Below are positions 1,937-10,633 of a stretch of 35,721 nt of DNA, in pieces. Position 1 is the stretch's first letter; each line of letters begins with the position of its first letter. The translations under genes and the position numbers were made by a program. The notes below the pieces were generated by a model. That model ran no database searches. It was not told where the DNA came from and worked only from the letters and a program-made list of their open reading frames with translations. This DNA is from an uncultured Chlorobiaceae bacterium (GTDB taxonomy: Bacteria > Bacteroidota > Chlorobiia > Chlorobiales > Chlorobiaceae), in contig CAIJWE010000089.1 of NCBI GenBank assembly GCA_903824295.1, forward strand, positions 1 through 35,721. Direction: 5' to 3'.

Positions 1937-2674
1937 TCAGCGGATGAAGTGGGTATAAATCTTTACAACAGGCTGCGGAGCAGGTAGCCGATCTTTTGAT
2001 TGCTCACGCATCTTCAGCAGCCACGCCATGTTTTCGCCGAGACGATCCATGATCTGAACACCTTCAGCGTCCTGTAATACTTCGCCTGGGGTACGGCCAT
2101 GGGTTATATTCCAGTAGTTGGAGGTTGCAAGAATCATTTCCGAATAGGTCAGATAATGGTTCAGGCTGTCGAATGTGGAGGAGCCGCCTGTACGGCGAAC
2201 GGCGACAACTGCTGCGGCTACCTTTTGACGGAACAACCCTCCGTTGCATCCAGCAACATAAAAGGCTCGATCGAGAAAACATTTCATGGTTCCTGCAATG
2301 CCTGCATAATAAACCGGAGAGCCAAGAATCAAGCCATCAGCCGCTTTGAGTTTCTGGATCCATTCATTCACCGGGTCGGTGGTGATGGAGCACTTTTCAT
2401 CCATATTTTTTGCGCAGGTTCCGCAGGCGAGGCAGCCCCTGACGGCCTGATTGCCAATGTGCAGAATTTCAAAATCGATGTTGTTCTCCTGTAATTGCCT
2501 GCCAACTCCCATCAGTGCATGAAAAGTATTGCCCTCCTTGCGGGGGCTGCCGTTAATTGCTACAACGTTCAATTTTTTGTGTGGTTTATGGTTACATGCT
2601 TCAATAAAAACTGTACGGCTTTCAGTCCAGCAATGGAGTGTCTGTTGCCTGAAGCAACTCTGCAAGCTCGGCAC
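1937..2674 (-). CDS. Iron-sulfur flavoprotein-like NAD(P)H-dependent FMN reductase
   Basis: Flavodoxin-fold protein of the NADPH-dependent FMN reductase/iron-sulfur flavoprotein family. The FMN phosphate loop reads NVVAINGSPRKEGNT. It is followed by a compact cysteine cluster GCLACGTC...KC, spacing CX2CX2CX7C, which fits the CX2CX2CX4-7C cluster-binding pattern of Isf proteins. The LILGSPVYYAGIAGTMKCFLDR stretch is the second flavin-binding segment. Likely role: flavin-mediated electron transfer or reduction of a small oxidant in the cytoplasm; the substrate cannot be inferred. The start is unclear. The frame is open from a GTG at 2674, which overlaps the preceding HEPN-like gene by 53 bases. 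The conserved fold begins only around residue 35, where a TTG (2572) is available, and no candidate start has a good Shine-Dalgarno. Confidence 0.8.
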   Translation of the reverse strand: MPSLQSCFRQQTLHCWTESRTVFIEACNHKPHKKLNVVAINGSPRKEGNTFHALMGVGRQLQENNIDFEILHIGNQAVRGCLACGTCAKNMDEKCSITTDPVNEWIQKLKAADGLILGSPVYYAGIAGTMKCFLDRAFYVAGCNGGLFRQKVAAAVVAVRRTGGSSTFDSLNHYLTYSEMILATSNYWNITHGRTPGEVLQDAEGVQIMDRLGENMAWLLKMREQSKDRLPAPQPVVKIYTHFIR

Positions 2675-3074
2675 TTATACGCATCGACTTTCGGGCGGCC
2701 TCGATAGCGGCGAGTGCCTCCTCTTCATTGAAAAGTTCCCAGGGAAGCTGGTAGGACGATTCATTGCCATATTTTGCCAGCATCTTTTCGTGTGAGTCAT
2801 ATTTTTCGAGCTCCGGCAATATCTCTTCAATCAATGCAGCAACCTCTTTGGTGACCGTCCCTTCCATCATGAGCTGCGATAAATGGCGGGCGGGCTTGTG
2901 TGTCAGGGGAGAGACGCCAAAGAGCATCAGCACGGCAAGACCGCTATTTTCAAGAACAAGTATGGAGCCTGACACACATGCCCGCCATCGCTTGAGGGAG
3001 CAATCCTGTTCTGCTTCATTCAAAAAGCCACGAGCAAGTTCAAGTCGATATGCAACATCCTTGTGTAATCCCAT
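2622..3074 (-). CDS. HEPN-like domain protein
   Basis: 150 residues from an ATG at 3074 with a clear ribosome-binding site (AAAGGAG, about 6 bases upstream). The frame stays open further upstream, but that part has no such signal. The protein is almost entirely helical. Its pattern resembles HEPN domains: LELARGFLNEAEQ, then WRACVSGSILVLENSGLAVLMLFG, then PARHLSQLM. HEPN proteins are often RNases or nucleotide-binding partners, commonly paired with nucleotidyltransferases. No nucleotidyltransferase partner is next to it here, and the RX4-6H RNase motif is not clear. Its 3' end overlaps the most upstream possible start of the flavoprotein gene. Function unknown. Confidence 0.6.
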   Translation of the reverse strand: MGLHKDVAYRLELARGFLNEAEQDCSLKRWRACVSGSILVLENSGLAVLMLFGVSPLTHKPARHLSQLMMEGTVTKEVAALIEEILPELEKYDSHEKMLAKYGNESSYQLPWELFNEEEALAAIEAARKSMRISAELAELLQATDTPLLD

Positions 3075-3128
3075 AACAATCTCCTTTAATGGTCCCTGCA
3101 TAGGGCAGGCTTTACATTGCAAGTAACG

Positions 3129-3165
3129 AAAAAAGAACAATCACCGAATCCGTCATGCGGCGATT
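3129..3165 (-). terminator. Probable intrinsic terminator after the LptE-like gene
   Basis: Read on the minus strand directly after the stop codon at 3166, AATCGCCG (3165-3158) can pair with CGGTGATT (3146-3139). This gives an 8-bp stem with one G-U pair and an 11-base loop. It is followed by TTC and a run of six T (3134-3129). It would separate the bchV/RLP gene series from the HEPN-like gene. Confidence 0.5.
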
Positions 3166-3675
3166 TTACCACCCGGAAACAACCTGGTCAAAGATCTGAT
3201 CAATAATCTGGCCAACGCAATGCCGAACGGCCTCTTGCTGAGCGATGTAATTTCCGGTTCGATAATCGGAAAATCCGACAAACGATTGGTCAAAAATTGG
3301 CGTTTTTTTCAACCGGTCAACCATTCTGACCTGCACAACAAGCGTCACCCTGTTTGTCATGGCTCGCTCGGTTGTGCTGGAGAGCTGGCTTGGCGCATCA
3401 GCAAAAGAGACAATAGTCCCTTCGAGCAGCGCGTCGGCACGGGCCATGGAGGGAGTGAGGCGAAGTACGCTTTGCGCTTCGATTTTGTTGGCAAGCCCGC
3501 CGGTAATCTCTCCCCTGAACTGTGCAATGCCGGCACCGGAACGGTCTTCAAATACCGGGATGGCAATGGTTTTGAGATGCGCAGGGAGCGATGATCCGGT
3601 AAAGCTGTAACAGCCCTGCAGAGTCGCAAGAACAAGAGCAAAAAACAGGTATACGGTTATGGCGGCTTTCGGCAT
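3166..3675 (-). CDS. LptE-like outer-membrane lipoprotein
   Basis: 169 residues with a lipoprotein signal peptide: hydrophobic core VYLFFALVLATL followed by the lipobox LQGC (Cys22). The mature part has the LptE-family layout: a start of the type YSFTGSSLPAHLKTIAIPVFEDRSG, then a helical GGLANKIEAQSVLRL segment, then beta strands (ALLEGTIVSF, RVTLVVQVRMVD). LptE plugs the LptD barrel that inserts lipopolysaccharide in the outer membrane. This is the shorter, diverged form found outside Proteobacteria, so the exact role is inferred. The ATG has an AAGGA ribosome-binding site 6 bases upstream. It follows the SDR gene by 15 bases and is probably cotranscribed with it. Confidence 0.75.
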   Translation of the reverse strand: MPKAAITVYLFFALVLATLQGCYSFTGSSLPAHLKTIAIPVFEDRSGAGIAQFRGEITGGLANKIEAQSVLRLTPSMARADALLEGTIVSFADAPSQLSSTTERAMTNRVTLVVQVRMVDRLKKTPIFDQSFVGFSDYRTGNYIAQQEAVRHCVGQIIDQIFDQVVSGW

Positions 3676-3690
3676 GACGATCCTTCGGCG

Positions 3691-4515
3691 TTAATAGGTT
3701 CGACGATCAATCCTCTTCGCTATTTTACGGAAGGGATAGGTCAGGAGCAACCATTTTTTTTTCTTTCCGTTCAGTGCTGAAAGGTAGAGTCCGGTTTTAG
3801 AGTCGCTCCAGTCAGAAGCGAGTTGTACGGCAAGCATGGCGGCAACTGATGGTGGTTGGGCAAAAATATCAAGAACCGTGCGGAAGGTGGTCAACTGCCG
3901 TGAAAGTTCTTGCGTAGGATTTTCGGAACTGACCATACCGGTACGAACCAGACCAGGATGGAGAAGCATGACTGAGATACCGGTATGGCGATACTCACGG
4001 GCAACCGCAGAGGTAAAACGGGCGATGGCTGCCTTGGAGGAGCCGTATGCACTCATCCAGGGGGTGTTTGAACCGCTGTCGGTGCCGGAACCTGCCATAT
4101 TGATAATCTTTCCCGGAATATTTTCCCTGAGGAAATAGCTGATTGCCGCACGGCAGCCGTTGTAGGTGCCTTTAAGATTGGTATCAATGACCTTGCCCCA
4201 AACTTCCGGATCGCTTTCTGTAATGCACTGGAAGGGATCGGAGATTCCTGCGTTATTGATAAAACAGTCAATACGTCCAAATTTTTCGACTGCCGCAGCA
4301 ACCAGGTGCTCCATATCGGCAAGAGAAACAACATCGCAGAGGCAACCATAAGCGGTACCAGGGGGAAATTCAGCCACAGCATCCTGAACATTGCGTTCCG
4401 AGGAGGAGGTTATCACCACCTTTGCTCCCTGGCGCACAAACTCATGCGCAATGGCTTTACCGATGCCTCTTGTGGAGCCGGTAATGACCGCAATTTTATG
4501 ATCCAGTTTACCCAT
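3691..4515 (-). CDS. Short-chain dehydrogenase/reductase (SDR)
   Basis: 274-residue classical SDR. It has the nucleotide-binding TGSTRGIG near residue 13, the structural NNAG motif, and the catalytic YxxxK in SAYGSSKAA, with a Ser in the preceding strand (NMAGSGTDSGS). The C-terminal tail is basic (KKKKWLLLTYPFRKIAKR), which could attach it to a membrane. It uses NAD(P)H on an unidentified carbonyl or alcohol. It begins 29 bases after the RLP stop and ends 15 bases before the LptE-like gene. A role next to RLP in the same pathway is inferred from this spacing. Neither its substrate nor its cofactor preference can be read with confidence. Confidence 0.85.
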   Translation of the reverse strand: MGKLDHKIAVITGSTRGIGKAIAHEFVRQGAKVVITSSSERNVQDAVAEFPPGTAYGCLCDVVSLADMEHLVAAAVEKFGRIDCFINNAGISDPFQCITESDPEVWGKVIDTNLKGTYNGCRAAISYFLRENIPGKIINMAGSGTDSGSNTPWMSAYGSSKAAIARFTSAVAREYRHTGISVMLLHPGLVRTGMVSSENPTQELSRQLTTFRTVLDIFAQPPSVAAMLAVQLASDWSDSKTGLYLSALNGKKKKWLLLTYPFRKIAKRIDRRTY

Positions 4516-4544
4516 ATAAGCAGAGCTTTTTCTGTTACTGGCGC

Positions 4545-5846
4545 TTATTTGTTCCTGTTAGCCCCATCAACCATTACCTGAAGTTCAGGGCGGCCGACGG
4601 CATAAGTTTCAAGCGCAATACCCTGTTCAATTGCCTCCCATGCCTGACGGATACTCGCAGCTCCGGCTCTGGGGCCCATTGGATGACCAAAAACTCCTCG
4701 ACCAGGCACAAAACCAAAGTCAACACTTCCGACCTTGCGGTAGACCGTTTCAAGTGTCAGCGCTGAATCGCTCCCTCCAGGGACGGGAAGCGAGCGTTTG
4801 AGATCGCCCAAATCCTGCAGACACTCCGCAATGTTCTCTTTTACCTCCTCTTCAGGAGTCATCATACGGCTGCCGAAGCCGGGCATGATGATTGAATCAA
4901 GACCGGCAAGCCGCTGAAGCTTGGTCATCACCCTTGAGTGAACACCATATTTTTCCATCCGGCTGAAAGCGGCGATAAAGGGAAAATGGCCAATCAGAGG
5001 CACTTTTGTATGACGGGCAAGCATTCTAACAGCACTGAGCCCAACCGGAAAGGCGTTAACCAGCAGCGCATTTGCTCCATTTCTGACAGCAATGTCGTGC
5101 TGCTCAAGGAGCCGGTCAACCTCATCGGTGATGTTGGCAAGATATATTTTTGGCGTACCAGTCTCTTTTTCCGCCCGCACTCTGGCTTCTCCGAGGACGA
5201 GAGAACGTTCGATAAGGGTTGACCAGTCAACATCGGCAAGCATTTCGTCATCTTTGGCAATGTCAAGCCCGCCGAGCCAGCTCTGATAGGCGATGTCTGA
5301 AAACTGGAGCGGAGTGAGGCCAATATTTGGCTTCACCACCCCGAAAAAGATCGGACGGTTATAGGCTTGCAGGATGTCGCGAATACCATCAACACCAAAT
5401 TTCGGGCCATCAAAGTCCTTCAGATAATTGTCAGGGAAGCCGATATCAAGCAACTTGACCACCGGCACGCCGGGAGTAAAAAAGACTCCCTCCCCGCAAA
5501 CAGCGGAGAGCAGATTAGGCAGTTTGGTGCCGAAATTGCAGTGAGGATGTGCAATGGTGACACGGCAGGCGTGAATCGGGCCTGATTCAGAATGGTGTAC
5601 CGGATAACTCAGCGCTTCAAGCTCACCCTCTACCGTCAAGCTGATCACCTTGGCGGCATACCTTGGACGAAAATCTTCATCATGGTCAACGCGTTTCCAC
5701 TGTGCCGTCGATTGTTCACTGCAGAAATGGGCAAGCGCGGTCTCAATATCTCCGACACACTCCAGATAGTAATCAAGCGTCAGATAGTCAGCCATATCAA
5801 GCTGCTCTTTTGAAGAAAAGAACCCTCTTATATCCTCACTGTTCAT
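4545..5846 (-). CDS. RuBisCO-like protein, form IV (green-sulfur-bacterial type)
   Basis: 433 residues, close in length and sequence to the C. tepidum RLP as I remember it. The RuBisCO large-subunit fold is evident from GVVKPNIGL (K172) and from [10 protein letters not shown], which keeps the metal-site residues K198, D200 and E201. Loop 6 reads [14 protein letters not shown] and lacks the catalytic lysine of true RuBisCO (GKLEG in the canonical enzyme), so CO2 fixation is not expected. Form IV proteins are known to act as enolases or isomerases on thio- or deoxy-sugar phosphates. The green-sulfur-bacterial version has been tied genetically to sulfur oxidation and oxidative stress, but its reaction is unknown. 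The gene sits 138 bases below the LsrF-like gene. A GGGGGGAG ribosome-binding site lies about 13 bases before the ATG, inside a possible hairpin. Confidence 0.95.
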
Positions 5847-5858
5847 AGAATAACATCA

Positions 5859-5901
5859 TCTCCCCCCCACTCTTCCGGGTTGGCTGGATAGAGTGGAGAG
5901 A
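5859..5901 (-). promoter_or_regulatory. 5' UTR hairpin that could cover the RLP ribosome-binding site
   Basis: On the minus strand, TCTCTCCACTCT (5901-5890) can pair with AGAGTGGGGGGGAGA (5873-5859) with two or so G residues bulged out; the loop is 16 bases. The 3' arm holds the G-rich Shine-Dalgarno of the RLP gene (ATG at 5846). There is no T run, so this is more likely a translational control element or chance pairing than a terminator. Confidence 0.35.
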
Positions 5902-5984
5902 TGCCCATTAAAAAAATCGAACTTTTTAAAAAACACCGCAGCAGGTACGCTTAAACAGGCTGCAGTGAAGTACATCACATTTAG

Positions 5985-6866
5985 TTATCCTTCAGCCTTG
6001 ATGGTATTGAAATAATCAAATGCATCCTCGGCACTCAAACCCTCATGCACCACCTTGTTGACGGCCTTCATCATCGCAAGAGGAGTATCGCTCTGGAAAA
6101 TATTACGCCCCATATCAACACCTGATGCGCCTTCATCAATGGCACGGCGGGACATGGTGAGCGCTTCGAGCTCGGGAAGTTTTTTGCCGCCAGCCATGAC
6201 TATCGGTACCGGACACGAAGCGACAATCGTATTGAAATCTTCAGGCACATAGTAGGTCTTGACAATCTGTGCGCCAAGCTCGGCAGCCATGCGACAGGCA
6301 AGCCTGAAGTATTTGGCATCGCGCACCATATCCTTGCCGACTGCGGTCACCGCCATAGTAGGAATCCCGTAACGCAGACCCATGTCAACAAGCCTGGTCA
6401 TATTGTGTATAGAGCGGGTCTCATACTCTCCACCAATGAAGATCTGGAGGGTTATTGCGGCAACGTTCATGCGGATGGCATCCTCAATATCAACAGCCAG
6501 CTCTTCGTCTGAAAGCTCCTTGAGAATGCTCGGGCCACCGCTGCAGCGCATCACGACCGCTCTGGTAAGGCTTGGTGGAACGGTGGTGCGCAGAATGCCC
6601 CGGGTGAGCATAATGGCGTCGGCATAAGGCATGAGCGGAACGATGTTGACATCAGGACGCTCAAGACCGGTGGTAGGCCCCTGAAAGTAGCCATGATCGA
6701 TCGCAAGCATGACCGTTTTTCCGGTATCGGGACGGAAAATCCTCGACAGGCGATTTTTCATTCCCCAGTCAAGGGAGTGGGCCCCTTTCAGAAAAAATCC
6801 GTGCGTGTTGACCGGAGTGTCGAGATAGTACTCTTTTGCCTGTTTGTCTTTATCGTATTCCGCCAT
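5985..6866 (-). CDS. LsrF-like class I aldolase/thiolase (DeoC/FbaB fold)
   Basis: 293 residues, almost the same length as E. coli LsrF (291). TIM-barrel class I aldolase: [13 protein letters not shown] at the first strand, [13 protein letters not shown], and [10 protein letters not shown] with Lys203 in the Schiff-base position; PIVMAGGKK and [13 protein letters not shown] form the phosphate site. LsrF transfers an acetyl group from 3-hydroxy-5-phosphonooxypentane-2,4-dione to CoA, giving acetyl-CoA and dihydroxyacetone phosphate. Archaeal-type fructose-bisphosphate aldolase and the ADH synthase of aromatic biosynthesis share the fold and are the main alternatives. The ATG has GGAGAG 9 bases upstream. 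It lies 60 bases below the aldolase/SDR fusion and upstream of RLP. No other lsr genes are present, so autoinducer-2 degradation is unlikely. Confidence 0.82.
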
Positions 6867-6926
6867 GATAGGTGCTCTCCGCTTTTTTCAGTTGTGGTTG
6901 TTGTTCTTGGTAACTCTCTCTTTCGT

Positions 6927-9044
6927 TCAGCGAAGCGCGGCTGCAATGTTGCCGCCATCCACTGTGGTAATTGAACCGGTTGTCCTGATTTCGAGCGCAA
7001 GATGGACAAAGGCCTCTGCCACATCTTCGGCGGTCACCTCAAGCTGCAGAAGGTTTCCGGCCATGTACTCTTTTTCACTCAAGCCGCGCGCTGTTGAGCG
7101 GGCCTTTATCATCTCTTCGGTCAAGAGGCCGCTACGGATGCGGTCGGCATTGATTCCGTTTGAACGAATGCCGTCACGCCCGTGGTCGAGGGCATATTGG
7201 CGCACCAAAAAGAGCGTTGCCGCCTTGGCCAGACCATAGGGGCCAAAGTCGGGACCGGGATTAACGGCCTGTTTTGAAACATTGAAAAGCAGGACGCCGC
7301 CGGTACCCTGGAGCTTCATCACCCTGACCGCCTCCTGGGCAATGGACTGGTGCGAAAAGAAGTTGATTTCAAAGCTCTTGCGCAGCAGATCGTCAGAGAC
7401 TTCACCAATTCGACCCTGTATGGCTGCACCGACGTTGGAGACGATAATATCGACACCACCAAAGCGGCGGCAGGCTGCGTCAAAAGCGGCACGGATATCG
7501 CCCCTTGAGGTGACGTCGCAGGTGAGGGCAAGGAGGTTGCCACCAAGCTCCTCCGATGCACGATCGAGGGCTTCACGGGTCAGATCCAGAATGACCAGCT
7601 CAGCCCCTCTCTGCCGAAATGCTTTAGCGGTGGCAAGGCCGATGCCGCTTGCAGCTCCAGTGACCATGACGATTTTACCGGCAAAAACATCGTGGTGAAC
7701 CTTGGTCATCTTGGCCTGCTCCATGTCCCAGTATTCGATCTCAAAAGCCTCGCGGTCGCTGATGGATTCGAAGGTGCCAACCGATTCGGCATCAAGGATG
7801 GCCGAGGCGGTACCCGTTGCAATGTCGGCGCTGACTGCCGCCAATTCGGCGGTTTTACCAAGGCCGAAAAGCCCGAGACCGGGCACCAGCACCACTCGCG
7901 GCAAGGGGTCGAGCATGGTGACCTGCATGTCGGCAGCTTGCTGCTGGATAGTAAAATAGTCGATGTACTCCTGACGGTAGCGTTGCACGGCCTCATGCAC
8001 CGACGCCTTGAATCCCGGCATGTCGGCCGCATCGGGCGCTGGAACAACAAGAGGGCAATTTTTTGTGCGGATAATGAAGTCGGGCGTCATGGCGCCCTTT
8101 TGACTCATAGAGAGGATATCGGCACTGTTGACATAGTCAAGAATGGCCGGAGAAGTACGAAAATCGAGAATAAACTGATGATACTCACGCATACCAAATG
8201 CCTTTTCATCAACACAGGCTCCCCTGATGACGGGTGCTGTTTCCTCAACCGAAGCAATGGTGGCTGGCAACGGTGCTGATGGAAAGAGTTTTCGGCCTGC
8301 TTTGGCAATCCGCTCTTCAAGCGTCGTGACCGCTTCTATCATGCGGCTGTAACCCTCTCTGGCCGTTGAGCCGAAAGTGACCAGACCATGCTTTTGCAGC
8401 ACAAGTCCCTTTATTTCAGGATTTTCCTCATAGACGACGGCGGCCGCGCGTGCAAGGCCAAGACCAGGCTTGATATAGGGCACAGAACCAAAATCCTCAC
8501 CCAGCGTTTCACCTATAAGCTTGGTGCCATCAGGCTGATTGCTGAGGGTAAGCAAGGCAAACGAGTGCGTGTGAAAAATAAAGCGATGCGGCAAAAATGC
8601 GTGCAGAAGGGTCTCAATCGAAGGAGTAAGCCGGTGCTCGTCCATGTGGTCCGTAAGACTGAACATGTTCAGAAGCAGAAGGTGTTTGAACTCTTTGGTC
8701 GAAAAACGCCGGAGAGCCTCTTCGCTTACAGTATCATTTCGGCTGAAGAGTTCACCCAGTTTGCGTAGCGGGCCAAGCCGGAGGGGCGTGTAATCACACC
8801 CGGAAACTCGGCTCAAATCGACACCGCTTGCCTTGATCAAAAGGACATCAGCCCGGTTGCCAACCAGATCGACCAGTTCACATTTGACTGAGGTGTTACC
8901 ACCACCATGCATCACCAGCGAGCTTTCGCGTCCAAGCAGGCGCGAGGCATAGACCAGCTCGGCAAGTTCCGGCTGCATATCGGTTGAGCTGCACTGCTCT
9001 CTGACGGAGCATTGAAGATCTGCTTCATTCCAAAGATTCTGCAT
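6927..9044 (-). CDS. Bifunctional class II aldolase / short-chain dehydrogenase
   Basis: 705-residue fusion. The N-terminal part is a zinc class II aldolase/epimerase: GGGNTSVK at 47-54 (phosphate loop), PSIETLLH with E144, FHTHSF with zinc ligands H158 and H160, and LQKHG with H219. The C-terminal SDR domain runs from about 455 to 705, with VTGAASGIG at 461-469, SNVGA in place of NNAG at 536-540 and the catalytic YGLAK at 603-607. Related fusions act in rhamnose breakdown: the aldolase splits a ketose-1-phosphate into dihydroxyacetone phosphate and a short aldehyde, and the SDR oxidises the aldehyde. No rhamnose isomerase or kinase is nearby, so the substrate here is probably different. It is followed at 60 bases by the LsrF-like gene. 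The ribosome-binding site is weak. Confidence 0.88.
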   Translation of the reverse strand: MQNLWNEADLQCSVREQCSSTDMQPELAELVYASRLLGRESSLVMHGGGNTSVKCELVDLVGNRADVLLIKASGVDLSRVSGCDYTPLRLGPLRKLGELFSRNDTVSEEALRRFSTKEFKHLLLLNMFSLTDHMDEHRLTPSIETLLHAFLPHRFIFHTHSFALLTLSNQPDGTKLIGETLGEDFGSVPYIKPGLGLARAAAVVYEENPEIKGLVLQKHGLVTFGSTAREGYSRMIEAVTTLEERIAKAGRKLFPSAPLPATIASVEETAPVIRGACVDEKAFGMREYHQFILDFRTSPAILDYVNSADILSMSQKGAMTPDFIIRTKNCPLVVPAPDAADMPGFKASVHEAVQRYRQEYIDYFTIQQQAADMQVTMLDPLPRVVLVPGLGLFGLGKTAELAAVSADIATGTASAILDAESVGTFESISDREAFEIEYWDMEQAKMTKVHHDVFAGKIVMVTGAASGIGLATAKAFRQRGAELVILDLTREALDRASEELGGNLLALTCDVTSRGDIRAAFDAACRRFGGVDIIVSNVGAAIQGRIGEVSDDLLRKSFEINFFSHQSIAQEAVRVMKLQGTGGVLLFNVSKQAVNPGPDFGPYGLAKAATLFLVRQYALDHGRDGIRSNGINADRIRSGLLTEEMIKARSTARGLSEKEYMAGNLLQLEVTAEDVAEAFVHLALEIRTTGSITTVDGGNIAAALR

Positions 9045-9111
9045 AAGAGATGATACTTCTCACACCGGAAATGCGGCGTGTATTGTTAAAAAATAACGAT
9101 AGCAATAAATG

Positions 9112-9120
9112 CCCCCCCCC
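9112..9120. repeat. Nine-base C/G homopolymer tract
   Basis: A run of nine C (nine G on the coding strand) lies between the small membrane-protein gene and the aldolase/SDR gene, 68-76 bases upstream of the latter's start. Such tracts change length by slippage in some bacteria. Whether this one does is not visible from one sequence. Confidence 0.6.
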
Positions 9121-9122
9121 GG

Positions 9123-9347
9123 TCACACCCTGCCTTTCTTTTTCTTTTCATGCCAACCCTCAATCAAAAAACCGGAGCCGTAGATAAGCAGAAATCCAGG
9201 AATCACCACACCAAGAAAAACGAGCTTGTCATCAACCGAGGGCAACTGACCGGAAGACCAGATCATCCAGACCAGCAAAAACCAGATCGGGCCGACAAAA
9301 AGAAACGTGGTATTCCAGAGCCTCTTGAAACTATGTTGCATGACCAT
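9123..9347 (-). CDS. Small two-span membrane protein of unknown function
   Basis: 74 residues (72 from the second ATG). Two hydrophobic segments, at about 14-31 (TTFLFVGPIWFLLVWMIW) and 42-61 (LVFLGVVIPGFLLIYGSGF), are followed by a basic tail ending EKKKKGRV. Both termini are likely cytoplasmic. I do not recognise the family. It sits 38 bases below bchV and 78 bases above the aldolase/SDR gene on the same strand, so cotranscription with bchV is likely. No clear Shine-Dalgarno precedes either ATG. A membrane partner for the membrane-bound BchV reaction is possible but only inferred from position. Confidence 0.65.
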   Translation of the reverse strand: MVMQHSFKRLWNTTFLFVGPIWFLLVWMIWSSGQLPSVDDKLVFLGVVIPGFLLIYGSGFLIEGWHEKKKKGRV

Positions 9348-9385
9348 TAAAGTATCTTGAGAAAAAAAAATGCGGAACCCCCCGC

Positions 9386-9859
9386 TCAGATTTGGCCGTC
9401 AATGCGCAGCTTGCGTTCATTACGTTTTTCAAGGATGATCCTGACCAGGTACTGCAGGGCATTGAGCACGTAAGTGAAATAGGCCAGAAAAGCATCGAAC
9501 AACAGCACCTGTTCAGAATAACGGCGATAAGCCAGAAAAAAATAGAGCAGATGAAAAAATGCGGCTATGGTACTGCCGATATCCTCCCAGAAAAACTCTT
9601 TTGAGTAGACCCATTTATTGAAAATTTCCTTTTCAAAAAACATCCCTGTTATAAAAAGGAGGGCAAAAAAGAGCGTTTTAAAAAGAATAGCTATGCTGAC
9701 CCAGTAAAAACTGGTGACAAAGAGGGAGTTGGCATAGAGCGCTGTTGTGGTGAGGCCGACAACAAAAAAGAGGAACTGGATCGGAGCAAGGATAATCTGG
9801 ATATCGGTCCAGACGGAAGCGTTTCTTTTGACAAGCTGTTCAGGGGTATAACGAGCCAT
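9386..9859 (-). CDS. bchV: 3-vinyl bacteriochlorophyllide hydratase (BchF/BchV family)
   Basis: 157 residues from the ATG at 9859 ([17 protein letters not shown]). This opening, together with [15 protein letters not shown], is characteristic of the BchF family. Four hydrophobic segments make it an integral membrane protein; the [17 protein letters not shown] stretch lies between spans. The enzyme hydrates the C-3 vinyl group of chlorophyllide intermediates to a 1-hydroxyethyl group, a step needed for bacteriochlorophylls c, d, e and a. Green sulfur bacteria have two copies, BchF and BchV. I call BchV because in C. tepidum, as I recall, bchV lies close to the RLP gene; the sequence alone does not settle it. 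In-frame starts further upstream exist at 9896 (ATG) and 9934 (GTG), neither with a good ribosome-binding site. Confidence 0.82.
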
Positions 9860-9927
9860 CTCTGTTTTACGCTTAACTGATAAAAAAAACTTCATGAGCC
9901 AGCCCGTCGCCGCCTGCCGGACCAACA

Positions 9928-9954
9928 CGCTCACCGTGAGCGGAAGGGAATATA
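9928..9954 (-). promoter_or_regulatory. Palindromic candidate operator and -10-like box upstream of bchV
   Basis: Positions 9928-9942 form a perfect inverted repeat, CGCTCAC-C-GTGAGCG. Just upstream on the minus strand is TATATT (9954-9949), a possible -10 box, which would place the palindrome near the transcription start, 69-83 bases before the bchV ATG. No good -35 box is seen. This fits a repressor site but is unproven. Confidence 0.35.
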
Positions 9955-10150
9955 GTAAAATTGAAGAGAGAGAAAAAAAATCCTGAACGAGTCACTCTCT
10001 ATCAGGAGCGTATCGTTGTGGTAATCGTAGAACTCATTGTCAAGATTTTTTTTGATCAGCGGCTCCCTGCCGGTTAGATTACCGTATCAATCCTGAAGCT
10101 CGACGCTCTGCGAAGCTGTTCAACAATTCATAACCGTTCACCCCTTTATC

Positions 10151-10633
10151 ATGGCAGACAACAATGCACATCCCGCAATGGCATTCGCCCTCAAACTGCT
10201 TGGGCTGCGCAATCACAGCCGCCGGGAACTTGAGCGGAAACTTCTGAAAAAGGGATATGACGCAAAGAGCACTAATGAGGTGATGGAAAAATTGACGAGC
10301 CGGGGAGTGCTTGACGACCGGGCATTCGGCATGGAGCTGATCAGAAGCCGCTCAAGAAGAAAGCCGTCAGGGAAATTGAAGCTCGGTGCGGAACTCCGCA
10401 AAAAAGGGGTTGCTGAGGCCATTATCGGTGAGCTTCTCAAAGAGTATGACAGCGCTACACGCTGCCGTCAGGCGGCAGAAAAAAAAATCGGGTCACTGCA
10501 TGAGGCAACCGAGGCCGATCGCAAAAGAAAACTTGAGGTTTTCCTCTGCAACCGGGGGTTTGAGTGGCATGAAATTCAAGCCGTACTCAAGCTGCTGTTG
10601 CAATCCGGTATGGATTTTGAGGAACCCTGTTAG
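10151..10633 (+). CDS. recX: Regulatory protein RecX
   Basis: 160 residues, all helical, made of the three-helix repeats typical of RecX. The first repeat reads AMAFALKLLGLRNHSRRELERKLLKKGY. The second has the family hallmark GVLDDRAFGMELIRSRSRRKPSGKLKLGAELRKKGV. The third runs through RCRQAAEKKIG to FLCNRGFEWHEIQAVL. RecX binds RecA filaments and limits recombinase activity in the cytoplasm. There is no recA next to it. It is divergent from bchV (291 bases between the start codons) and converges on pyrH with only 11 bases between the stops. No strong Shine-Dalgarno is present. Confidence 0.9.
   Translation: MADNNAHPAMAFALKLLGLRNHSRRELERKLLKKGYDAKSTNEVMEKLTSRGVLDDRAFGMELIRSRSRRKPSGKLKLGAELRKKGVAEAIIGELLKEYDSATRCRQAAEKKIGSLHEATEADRKRKLEVFLCNRGFEWHEIQAVLKLLLQSGMDFEEPC

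Follow-up and report, generated by a model that had tools for sequence, protein, structure and literature searches.

The window is a stretch of 35,721 nucleotides from the genome of an uncultured Chlorobiaceae bacterium. Read 5' to 3', its minus strand carries a bchF/V family gene, a 74-aa open reading frame (ORF), a class II aldolase/SDR fusion, an LsrF-like gene, a gene for a RuBisCO-like protein (RLP) and a stand-alone SDR, in this order. The first-pass annotation had described the last four as consecutive minus-strand genes, and we confirmed their positions and families. Its placing of bchV at the head of the series was a fair description of a gene that is BCHF by TIGR02020. The features are:

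9386-9934, minus strand: bchF/V family gene (2-/3-vinyl bacteriochlorophyllide hydratase); PF07284 4.9e-52, TIGR02020 198.5 bits against a cut-off of 101.35
9123-9347, minus strand: small ORF of membrane type that separates bchF/V from the fusion, 74 aa, from its translation
6927-9044, minus strand: fusion of class II aldolase (N-terminal) and SDR dehydrogenase (C-terminal), 705 aa; PF00596, PF13561, NF006193
5985-6866, minus strand: LsrF-like protein (3-hydroxy-5-phosphonooxypentane-2,4-dione thiolase, predicted), 293 aa; PF01791, NF006081
4545-5846, minus strand: RLP, assigned to the IV-Photo type, 433 aa; PF00016 1.5e-49 and PF02788
3691-4515, minus strand: SDR, 274 aa; PF00106 6.4e-49
3166-3675, minus strand: LptE-like lipoprotein gene, next on the same strand; PF04390

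We compared gene order around RLP across the Chlorobiaceae. An RLP match was present in 80 of 86 genomes, comprising 58 whose loci were fetched with flanks, the window's own genome and 21 for which no flanks were fetched. The fusion, LsrF, RLP and SDR genes are consecutive on one strand in all 58 fetched loci (in one, L071, the SDR is truncated at a contig edge), and the linkage is thus kept; its loss in most of the family would, by the first-pass annotation, have refuted the pathway. Median gaps are 59 bp (fusion-LsrF), 114 bp (LsrF-RLP) and 33.5 bp (RLP-SDR, 29 bp in the window). The bchF/V gene lies 5' of the fusion in 54 of these loci, and the 74-aa ORF is likewise kept in 54/58. An LptE-like gene follows the SDR in 57, the remaining locus stopping at a contig edge; it is probably a housekeeping neighbour outside the pathway. 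The 74-aa ORF matched no Pfam family above cut-off, and "membrane-type" is our reading of its hydrophobic sequence. Regulatory DNA in the gap between bchF/V and the fusion was considered and rejected, the conservation there being that of this coding ORF. No known RNA or riboswitch matched an Rfam model above cut-off anywhere in the window; the sole match with E up to 1 in positions 3600-10200, a plant miRNA model (24.1 of 54 bits), was taken as chance.

The LsrF-like protein is predicted to be an orthologue-like thiolase of 3-hydroxy-5-phosphonooxypentane-2,4-dione (P-HPD). It scored 509.6 bits with NF006081 (P-HPD thiolase; cut-off 297), and its best solved-structure match is LsrF 3gkf (390.9 bits). 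Like LsrF of the E. coli lsr operon, to which it is identical at 178 of 286 residues (62%), it retains K203, which we take to be the catalytic lysine; this residue is invariant across 62 sequences. LsrF is also the most conserved of the four operon proteins (median identity of 91%). By structural formulae, with the substrate name taken from NF006081, P-HPD is 5-deoxyribulose-1-phosphate (dRu1P) oxidised at C4. A LuxS search, whose control was positive for 5 of 14 known genomes, found no match in any of the 98 class genomes. The usual route to P-HPD, by way of AI-2, is therefore missing, and we rejected AI-2 as the origin of the LsrF substrate. Unlike in the lsr operon, the neighbours here are an aldolase/SDR and an RLP and there is no LuxS match; P-HPD would therefore have to derive from an oxidised deoxypentulose phosphate. 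Outside the class, only 3 of 296 genomes of the phylum matched LsrF at E ≤ 1e-60, so the wider LsrF context consists of three loci. LsrF adjoins a zinc-type dehydrogenase in two other Bacteroidota loci, all family matches being under cut-off: several zinc-dehydrogenase families match the L264 dehydrogenase, none above cut-off, and a small L264 protein has a glyoxalase fold match under cut-off only. The neighbours in L265 and L266 were assigned by eye. Such pairing fits an oxidise-then-thiolyse scheme.

The fusion scored 1360.6 bits with NF006193 (cut-off 1213). The glutamate and three histidines of its aldolase domain and the S/Y/K motif residues of its SDR domain are invariant in 62 sequences. 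It is the sole PF00596 match in its own genome and in 76 of the 78 fusion-bearing genomes, the other two having two fusions. A stand-alone aldolase occurs in 11 relatives, none of which has an LsrF match. We propose that the fusion is a dRu1P aldolase with a dehydrogenase domain. The closest solved structures to the stand-alone SDR are glucose 1-dehydrogenases, at about 120 bits, so its substrate is not fixed; it is our candidate for the enzyme that would dehydrogenate the deoxyketose phosphate at C4. We also considered this SDR as a paralogue of the SDR of the islands described below; it is only 33% identical to the island SDR and 26% to the fusion SDR domain, and because of these values we drew no inference.

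We assigned the RLP to the IV-Photo group. Its nearest solved structures are 1tel and 1ykw (774 and 772 bits), which we take to be green sulfur bacterial RLPs, and 2qyg (664 bits), presumably R. palustris RLP2; the next match reached 171 bits. The best 80 of 199 RLP loci belong to Chlorobiota or to genera of purple phototrophs. By curated cut-off it is neither a bona fide RuBisCO nor a known salvage RLP (TIGR03326, 210.7 of 497.45; OiaX, 205.8 of 700; MtnW TIGR03332, 151.3 of 513.6). The [10 protein letters not shown] metal-site motif and the VVKPN lysine are invariant in 58 sequences.

Genes for an upstream phosphorylase and isomerase, whose absence would likewise have refuted the first-pass idea, are present: a PNP-family gene occurs in 95 and mtnA in 93 of the 98 class genomes, and the two are adjacent in 75 of the 80 Chlorobiaceae genomes compared. 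G003 and G018 were dropped from this count as having only weak PF01048 matches (E 6.6e-6 and 1.3e-5), and for G067 we used the mtnA fragment on the phosphorylase contig. The pair is unlinked to the operon. In the window's own genome the phosphorylase (C94:31419-32156) and mtnA (C94:32193-33197) lie on one contig and the operon on another (C89), and in the single-contig genomes G001, G002, G016, G020 and G025 mtnA and the fusion are ~38 kb or more apart. The phosphorylase and mtnA are also found in relatives that have neither RLP nor LsrF. The best above-cut-off families of the phosphorylase are TIGR01700 (inosine/guanosine PNP) and NF006054, with MTAP far under its cut-off. In 11 of 11 aligned sequences it resembles MTAP at two positions that presumably set specificity, with Asp where human PNP has N243 and Ile or Val in place of H257. 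The window's own genome has one amidohydrolase, unclassified. For Synechococcus elongatus it is described that 5'-deoxyadenosine is apparently not a substrate of the other purine phosphorylases (PMC8102628, in extract).

The reading that we hold most likely, at a probability of about 0.5, is that the operon serves to salvage the 5-deoxypentose moiety of 5'-deoxyadenosine, which the radical-SAM steps of bacteriochlorophyll synthesis leave as a by-product; it would be a variant of the DHAP shunt. The phosphorylase-MtnA pair would convert 5'-deoxyadenosine to 5-deoxyribose-1-phosphate and then to dRu1P, which the aldolase domain of the fusion would split into DHAP and acetaldehyde, leaving its SDR domain to deal with the acetaldehyde. 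The same cleavage has been established for a class II aldolase of B. thuringiensis (PMC6079011, in extract). In an oxidative route, an SDR would oxidise dRu1P, or the isomeric 1-deoxy-pentulose-5-phosphate, at the C4 hydroxyl to give P-HPD, and LsrF would convert P-HPD to DHAP and acetyl-CoA. The RLP, with its family's enolising metal site, may shift the carbonyl along the deoxyketose phosphate to yield 1-deoxy-pentulose-5-phosphates, among which DXP could enter isoprenoids. What the sequences show directly is the gene content and order, the families and the conserved catalytic motifs; the steps given here are inferred. Aldolase and thiolase routes running in parallel appear redundant, which speaks against this reading, as do the PNP family assignment of the phosphorylase, the distance of its gene pair from the operon, the S. 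elongatus finding and the separability of RLP and LsrF described below.

The sugar-phosphate salvage operon put forward by the first-pass annotation is partly supported, by its conserved order, the fit of LsrF to P-HPD and its upstream genes; a single linear pathway that needs RLP is not supported, as RLP is separable and outside the Chlorobiaceae travels with yjbQ and not with LsrF. Several genomes show RLP and fusion-LsrF to be modules that can come apart. G086, a genome in one contig, carries RLP without an LsrF match, G087 has fusion-LsrF and RLP on different contigs, and G026 and G048 have second fusion-LsrF copies without RLP. A search of 12 purple genomes that carry this RLP (out of 14 purple RLP loci) detected no LsrF and had no positive of its own, and in 15 of 15 named non-Chlorobiaceae loci RLP directly follows yjbQ.

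Several radical-SAM enzymes act per pigment in bacteriochlorophyll c synthesis, so much 5'-deoxyadenosine is expected in green sulfur cells. The second fusion-LsrF copies lie in two bacteriochlorophyll-e-type islands of two genomes, where a bchF paralogue and a radical-SAM gene precede them. The island radical-SAM search gave eight full-length matches and one partial match (G073). All seven island loci examined for the 74-aa ORF (L229 left out) carry it, placed after the bchF paralogue and ahead of the radical-SAM gene; because the island loci share this pair of bchF and small ORF, the island fusion-LsrF copy may descend from the operon described here. We read six further islands: two keep decayed fusion remnants (one also an LsrF remnant), and four, one of them on a 3.9-kb contig, are without fusion or LsrF. 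The source that the first-pass annotation suggested, 5'-deoxyadenosine, is favoured by the co-location with bchF/V and by the two island copies. The closeness of the operon to bchF/V could be chance. 5'-Deoxyadenosine is described as inhibitory (PMC6079011, in extract).

The best-surviving alternative, which we consider possible and clearly less probable than the salvage operon, is that two unrelated modules meet here, fusion-LsrF serving deoxypentose salvage and RLP, SDR and a distant YjbQ filling another need of the Chlorobiaceae, e.g. in DXP/isoprenoid, sulfur or stress metabolism. The purple genomes, the yjbQ loci and the separate copies in G087, G026 and G048 all speak for it. Against it, RLP is kept between LsrF and the SDR with short gaps in 58/58 loci, and a chance join need not persist. 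The matching Chlorobiaceae yjbQ lies 11-565 bp 5' of dxs on the same strand in all 20 loci fetched, which were chosen for the presumed RLP-linked type of yjbQ. This hints at an RLP role around DXP (isoprenoid); the adjacency is no more than suggestive, since the neighbourhood belongs to a long block of synteny in the family.

A bolder and rather doubtful proposal, supported by these two yjbQ arrangements, is that the IV-Photo RLP converts 5'-deoxyadenosine-derived dRu1P directly to DXP in a 5'-deoxyadenosine-isoprenoid shunt, while SDR and LsrF would recover the wrong isomer in the form of DHAP and acetyl-CoA. If true, the ribose left over from each radical-SAM step of bacteriochlorophyll synthesis would be fed back into the isoprenoid tail and the carotenoids that belong to the same antenna. 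Such a shunt would resemble the MTA-isoprenoid shunt of the DeepYkr RLPs (R. rubrum Rru_A1998, R. palustris RLP1) in having RLP after a phosphorylase and MtnA and, as proposed here, DXP as product. It would differ in that the window RLP is of the IV-Photo group, which was found not to serve MTA (PMC5893883, in extract), and in that a 5-deoxy substrate would need no methylsulfurylase cupin.

Methylthioadenosine (MTA) salvage, in which the same genes would act on 5-methylthioribulose-1-phosphate in MTA-isoprenoid or DHAP-methylthio shunts, appears improbable. A methylthio substrate would be expected to give methylthioacetyl-CoA, because LsrF releases the acetyl group, and we know of no use for this product. 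The radical-SAM island link likewise favours 5'-deoxyadenosine. Phosphorylase and MtnA are present, as this salvage would need; DeepYkr-group RLPs isomerise methylthioribulose-1-phosphate, and slight conversion in vitro is described for the Photo RLP of R. palustris. The same study found at most a negligible part for that Photo RLP in MTA metabolism (PMC5893883, in extract), which weakens the 5-methylthio alternative raised by the first-pass annotation.

Lsr-type use of AI-2, with LsrF degrading phospho-AI-2 imported from neighbours, would account for the true LsrF similarity and is very improbable given the missing LuxS match and the eight locus proteins scanned, among which there was no transporter, LsrK-like or LsrG-like gene. 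Least probable of all is rhamnose- or fucose-type breakdown by the fusion with the other genes as mere neighbours: the fusion resembles rhamnulose-1-phosphate aldolase/lactaldehyde dehydrogenase (RhaEW, TIGR02632) in domain order, and RhaEW performs DHAP-forming chemistry of the kind proposed here, but the fusion, at 439.4 bits, falls under the curated cut-off of 567.75, it belongs to NF006193/NF006192, and the same eight proteins include no sugar isomerase, kinase or transporter.

Papers of 2001 and 2003 on C. tepidum reportedly describe pigment, sulfur and stress defects on RLP deletion. A salvage operon beside bchF/V would, if true, explain the pigment defect and give RLP a substrate. Deletion of the R. 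palustris Photo RLP gave none of the C. tepidum phenotypes (PMC5893883, in extract). Our literature search found no description joining LsrF with a RuBisCO-like protein, and none combining deoxyadenosine, bacteriochlorophyll, salvage and green sulfur bacteria. With the LsrF substrate being, by formula, oxidised dRu1P, the pathway guess becomes a one-step spectrophotometric assay.

Known clusters of the DHAP shunt for 5-deoxyribose disposal comprise a kinase or phosphorylase, MtnA and the class II aldolase DrdA/Ald2 (PMC6079011, PMC10986504). The window's genome likewise has a phosphorylase-type gene, MtnA and a class II aldolase, with DHAP among the expected products. Its aldolase differs in being a 705-aa SDR fusion paired with LsrF and RLP, and in lying in a bacteriochlorophyll locus and not beside mtnA; acetyl-CoA is proposed here as a second product. 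In the archaeal 6-deoxy-5-ketofructose-1-phosphate route, too, a deoxy-diketose phosphate is handled by an enzyme of the LsrF family (DeoC/LacD), MJ0400. That route may be fed by dRu1P (PMC6079011, in extract). The LsrF-like protein of the window is far nearer LsrF (391 bits) than MJ0400 (127.5 bits).

The operon lies on contig C89 of a 2.85 Mb green sulfur bacterium genome whose nearest named relatives are Chlorobiaceae MAGs. The first-pass annotation had reported four minus-strand open reading frames (ORFs), encoding an aldolase/SDR fusion, an LsrF-like protein, a RuBisCO-like protein (RLP) and a second SDR, and the ORF coordinates place all four where it had them:

9386-9934, minus strand: bchF/V, upstream of the fusion
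9123-9347, minus strand: ORF for a 74-aa membrane-type protein, between bchF/V and the fusion
6927-9044, minus strand: aldolase/SDR fusion ORF
5985-6866, minus strand: LsrF-like ORF
4545-5846, minus strand: RLP ORF, of the IV-Photo type
3691-4515, minus strand: SDR ORF
2622-3140, minus strand: HEPN-domain gene, next to the operon
1937-2674, minus strand: FMN-reductase-like gene, next to the operon

The gaps calculated from these coordinates, from bchF/V down to the SDR, are 38, 78, 60, 138 and 29 bp, with LptE 15 bp beyond. They are short throughout because the 74-aa ORF fills the space between bchF/V and the fusion.

We searched 98 genomes of the class and matched RLP in 82, comprising 80 of the 86 Chlorobiaceae and both genomes of a second family (f2); none of the 10 genomes of the other two families (f3 and f4) matched. 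Flanking genes were compared at 58 Chlorobiaceae loci, the other 22 Chlorobiaceae genomes with RLP being the window's own and 21 without such flanks. At all 58 loci the fusion, LsrF, RLP and SDR are consecutive on one strand (the SDR of locus L071 is cut by a contig edge). The gene series that had been described is borne out and unusually well conserved. LptE follows the SDR in 57 loci and bchF/V precedes the fusion in 54. The small ORF is missing as well from three of the four loci that have no bchF/V; the remaining locus stops at a contig edge. Among the best 80 RLP matches listed, LsrF precedes RLP in 61 of 65 named Chlorobiaceae loci, many of these genomes being common to the set of 58. 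The remaining four have RLP beginning 9-324 bp into the available stretch, and in three of them the end of LsrF is still visible ahead of it. The HEPN gene (39 of 58 loci) and the FMN reductase gene (6 of 58) are variable neighbors outside the series, contig edges being ignored in both counts. Median identity is highest for LsrF (91%), followed by RLP (86%), the fusion (81%) and the SDR (77%). In one RLP gene (genome G024, locus L051, C47:198798-200091) an in-frame TGA leaves two frames that overlap, which may reflect a sequencing error or a recent loss. Genome G050 (99% complete, 40 contigs) keeps the phosphorylase and mtnA and has no match to RLP, LsrF or the fusion; the operon may really have been lost there, or it may lie on a contig that was not binned.

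In the fusion, the Glu and three His of the class II aldolase part and the Ser/Tyr/Lys of the SDR part do not vary among 62 sequences; Lys203 of LsrF is likewise invariant among 62 LsrF sequences. A 15-residue segment and VPGGSD are invariant in 58 RLP sequences (the broken G024 RLP was left out). We take the motifs in all three proteins to be catalytic. The LsrF-like protein of the window aligns with E. coli LsrF without gaps and is identical at 178 of 286 positions.

The LsrF family name carries 3-hydroxy-5-phosphonooxypentane-2,4-dione (P-HPD), CH3-CO-CHOH-CO-CH2OP. This is 5-deoxyribulose-1-phosphate (CH3-CHOH-CHOH-CO-CH2OP) with one hydroxyl, at C4, oxidized, and oxidation of 1-deoxyxylulose-5-phosphate (DXP; CH3-CO-CHOH-CHOH-CH2OP) at its own C4 also gives P-HPD. 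As both ketoses are one C4 oxidation from P-HPD, a dehydrogenase and LsrF could cut either, and the products would be dihydroxyacetone phosphate (DHAP) and acetyl-CoA; an isomerase-type RLP would interconvert the two ketoses. This scheme, which we infer from structural formulae and family chemistry, predicts substrates to try and is narrower than the first-pass proposal, namely salvage of deoxy- or methylthio-pentulose phosphates, for example from the 5'-deoxyadenosine of radical SAM enzymes. That proposal is supported in part: we retain a deoxypentulose phosphate derived from 5'-deoxyadenosine as the best reading of the substrate, at a probability of about 0.5; the place given to RLP is its weakest point. 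If the reading is right, the operon would be a DHAP shunt in a form not described before. Salvage of 5-deoxyribose via a class II aldolase is established, according to the accessible parts of three reports (PMC6079011, PMC10986504, PMC12632272). Among the mostly open-access papers searched, none was seen to describe a salvage operon made up of the fusion, LsrF and RLP.

Genes for the upstream steps are widespread in the class. mtnA (TIGR00512) was matched in 93 of the 98 genomes and a PNP-superfamily gene in 95, the latter being the sole one in the window's genome. The phosphorylase and mtnA domain hits are 33-95 bp apart in 75 of the 80 Chlorobiaceae genomes compared (exceptions: G036, G040, G041, G043 and G048; G003 and G018 were excluded for weak matches). 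The phosphorylase exceeds the cut-offs for PNP (TIGR01700, NF006054) and does not reach that of the MTAP family profile. In all 11 class sequences aligned, it has Asp at human PNP N243 and Ile/Val at H257, like human MTAP, positions that presumably select 6-amino bases and 5'-deoxy sugars. In R. rubrum, the MTA phosphorylase is described as handling MTA and 5-deoxyadenosine ~30 times faster than adenosine (PMC4958253, in part). Counting against the phosphorylase step, the accessible text of PMC8102628 indicates that non-MtnP phosphorylases of Synechococcus elongatus are apparently inactive on 5'-deoxyadenosine. The window's genome, in which we found one amidohydrolase only, may have a deaminase route.

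The distribution of the genes bears on RLP itself. PF00596 was matched in 89 of the 98 genomes: in 77 Chlorobiaceae and G087 the open frames are of fusion size (691-765 aa), and in the 11 others (G086 and the f3 and f4 genomes) the aldolase stands alone (234-285 aa). LsrF was matched in 79 genomes, 78 Chlorobiaceae (one by fragments only) and G087, and in none of the 11 with a stand-alone aldolase; the fusion and LsrF therefore appear to take the place of the simple aldolase. In G087 the fusion adjoins LsrF on a different contig from RLP. Among the best 80 RLP matches listed, yjbQ is directly followed by RLP in all 15 named non-Chlorobiaceae loci (one from Chloroherpetonaceae and 14 from purple bacteria), with no fusion, LsrF or SDR near RLP within the available stretch. 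A search of purple genomes, which covered 12 of the 14 purple loci and had no positive of its own, likewise detected LsrF in none of the 12. Since RLP occurs without LsrF outside Chlorobiaceae, it probably serves some function for which LsrF is not required. That RLP acts separately from salvage altogether is a serious rival, if on balance an unlikely one. According to the accessible text of PMC5893883, the Photo RLP of R. palustris (RPA0262) contributes negligibly, if at all, to MTA metabolism, and deleting it does not reproduce the phenotypes seen in C. tepidum; we found no mention of 5'-deoxyadenosine in that text. IV-Photo members come from phototrophic Proteobacteria or Chlorobi, and Gemmatimonas phototrophica groups with them (PMC7844134, in part).

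One yjbQ copy of Chlorobiaceae clusters in a tree with the RLP-linked yjbQ (joining-node support 0.25-0.96). In 20 of 20 fetched loci, dxs follows this copy on the same strand after 11-565 bp, within a long block that shows synteny throughout. In R. rubrum, the RLP pathway yields DXP (PMC4958253, in part), and the yjbQ-dxs neighborhood makes sense if RLP here forms DXP likewise. YjbQ is listed as a protein of unknown function (PMC7954711, in part). Outside Chlorobiaceae, yjbQ (UPF0047) is found just upstream of IV-Photo RLP at loci L157-L171 and L032; the Chlorobiaceae copies (L267-L286) stand after an alpha-amylase-like gene and before dxs.

In a phylum sample of 394 genomes, 296 of them outside the class, LsrF had a good match in three of the 296. 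At two of these loci its neighbors are a zinc-type dehydrogenase and a small protein that perhaps has the glyoxalase (VOC) fold; at the third, proteins nearby look like members of the DhaK/DhaL and VOC types. These neighborhoods, in other Bacteroidota, are L264 7586-9948, L265 6474-8814 and L266 9929-12871. The L264 dehydrogenase is nearest L-threonine 3-dehydrogenase, below every cut-off, and the VOC match of its small protein is also below cut-off; neighbors in L265 and L266 were assigned by eye. The loci give a slight hint that a dehydrogenase beside LsrF recurs, as the scheme requires.

Second intact fusion-LsrF copies occur in G026 (named contig Pelodictyon luteolum CIII) and G048, in a bacteriochlorophyll-e-type island ordered bchF paralogue, small ORF, radical-SAM protein (NF045502, taken as BciD), fusion and LsrF. 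Compared with the window proteins, the fusions are 72-73% and the LsrF proteins 88-89% identical. These copies support a tie between fusion-LsrF and bacteriochlorophyll radical-SAM chemistry, but the island could have arisen from this operon and brought the pair with it. Neither gene was found in four further islands; those of G078 and G085 hold a C-terminal fusion remnant only, with an LsrF remnant also in G078. The 74-aa ORF, found in 54 of the 58 Chlorobiaceae operon loci, also occurs in all seven island loci tested, flanked there by bchF and the radical-SAM gene. Decayed remnants stand behind the radical-SAM gene at L226 3437-3780 (fusion and LsrF) and L228 7658-7849 (fusion).
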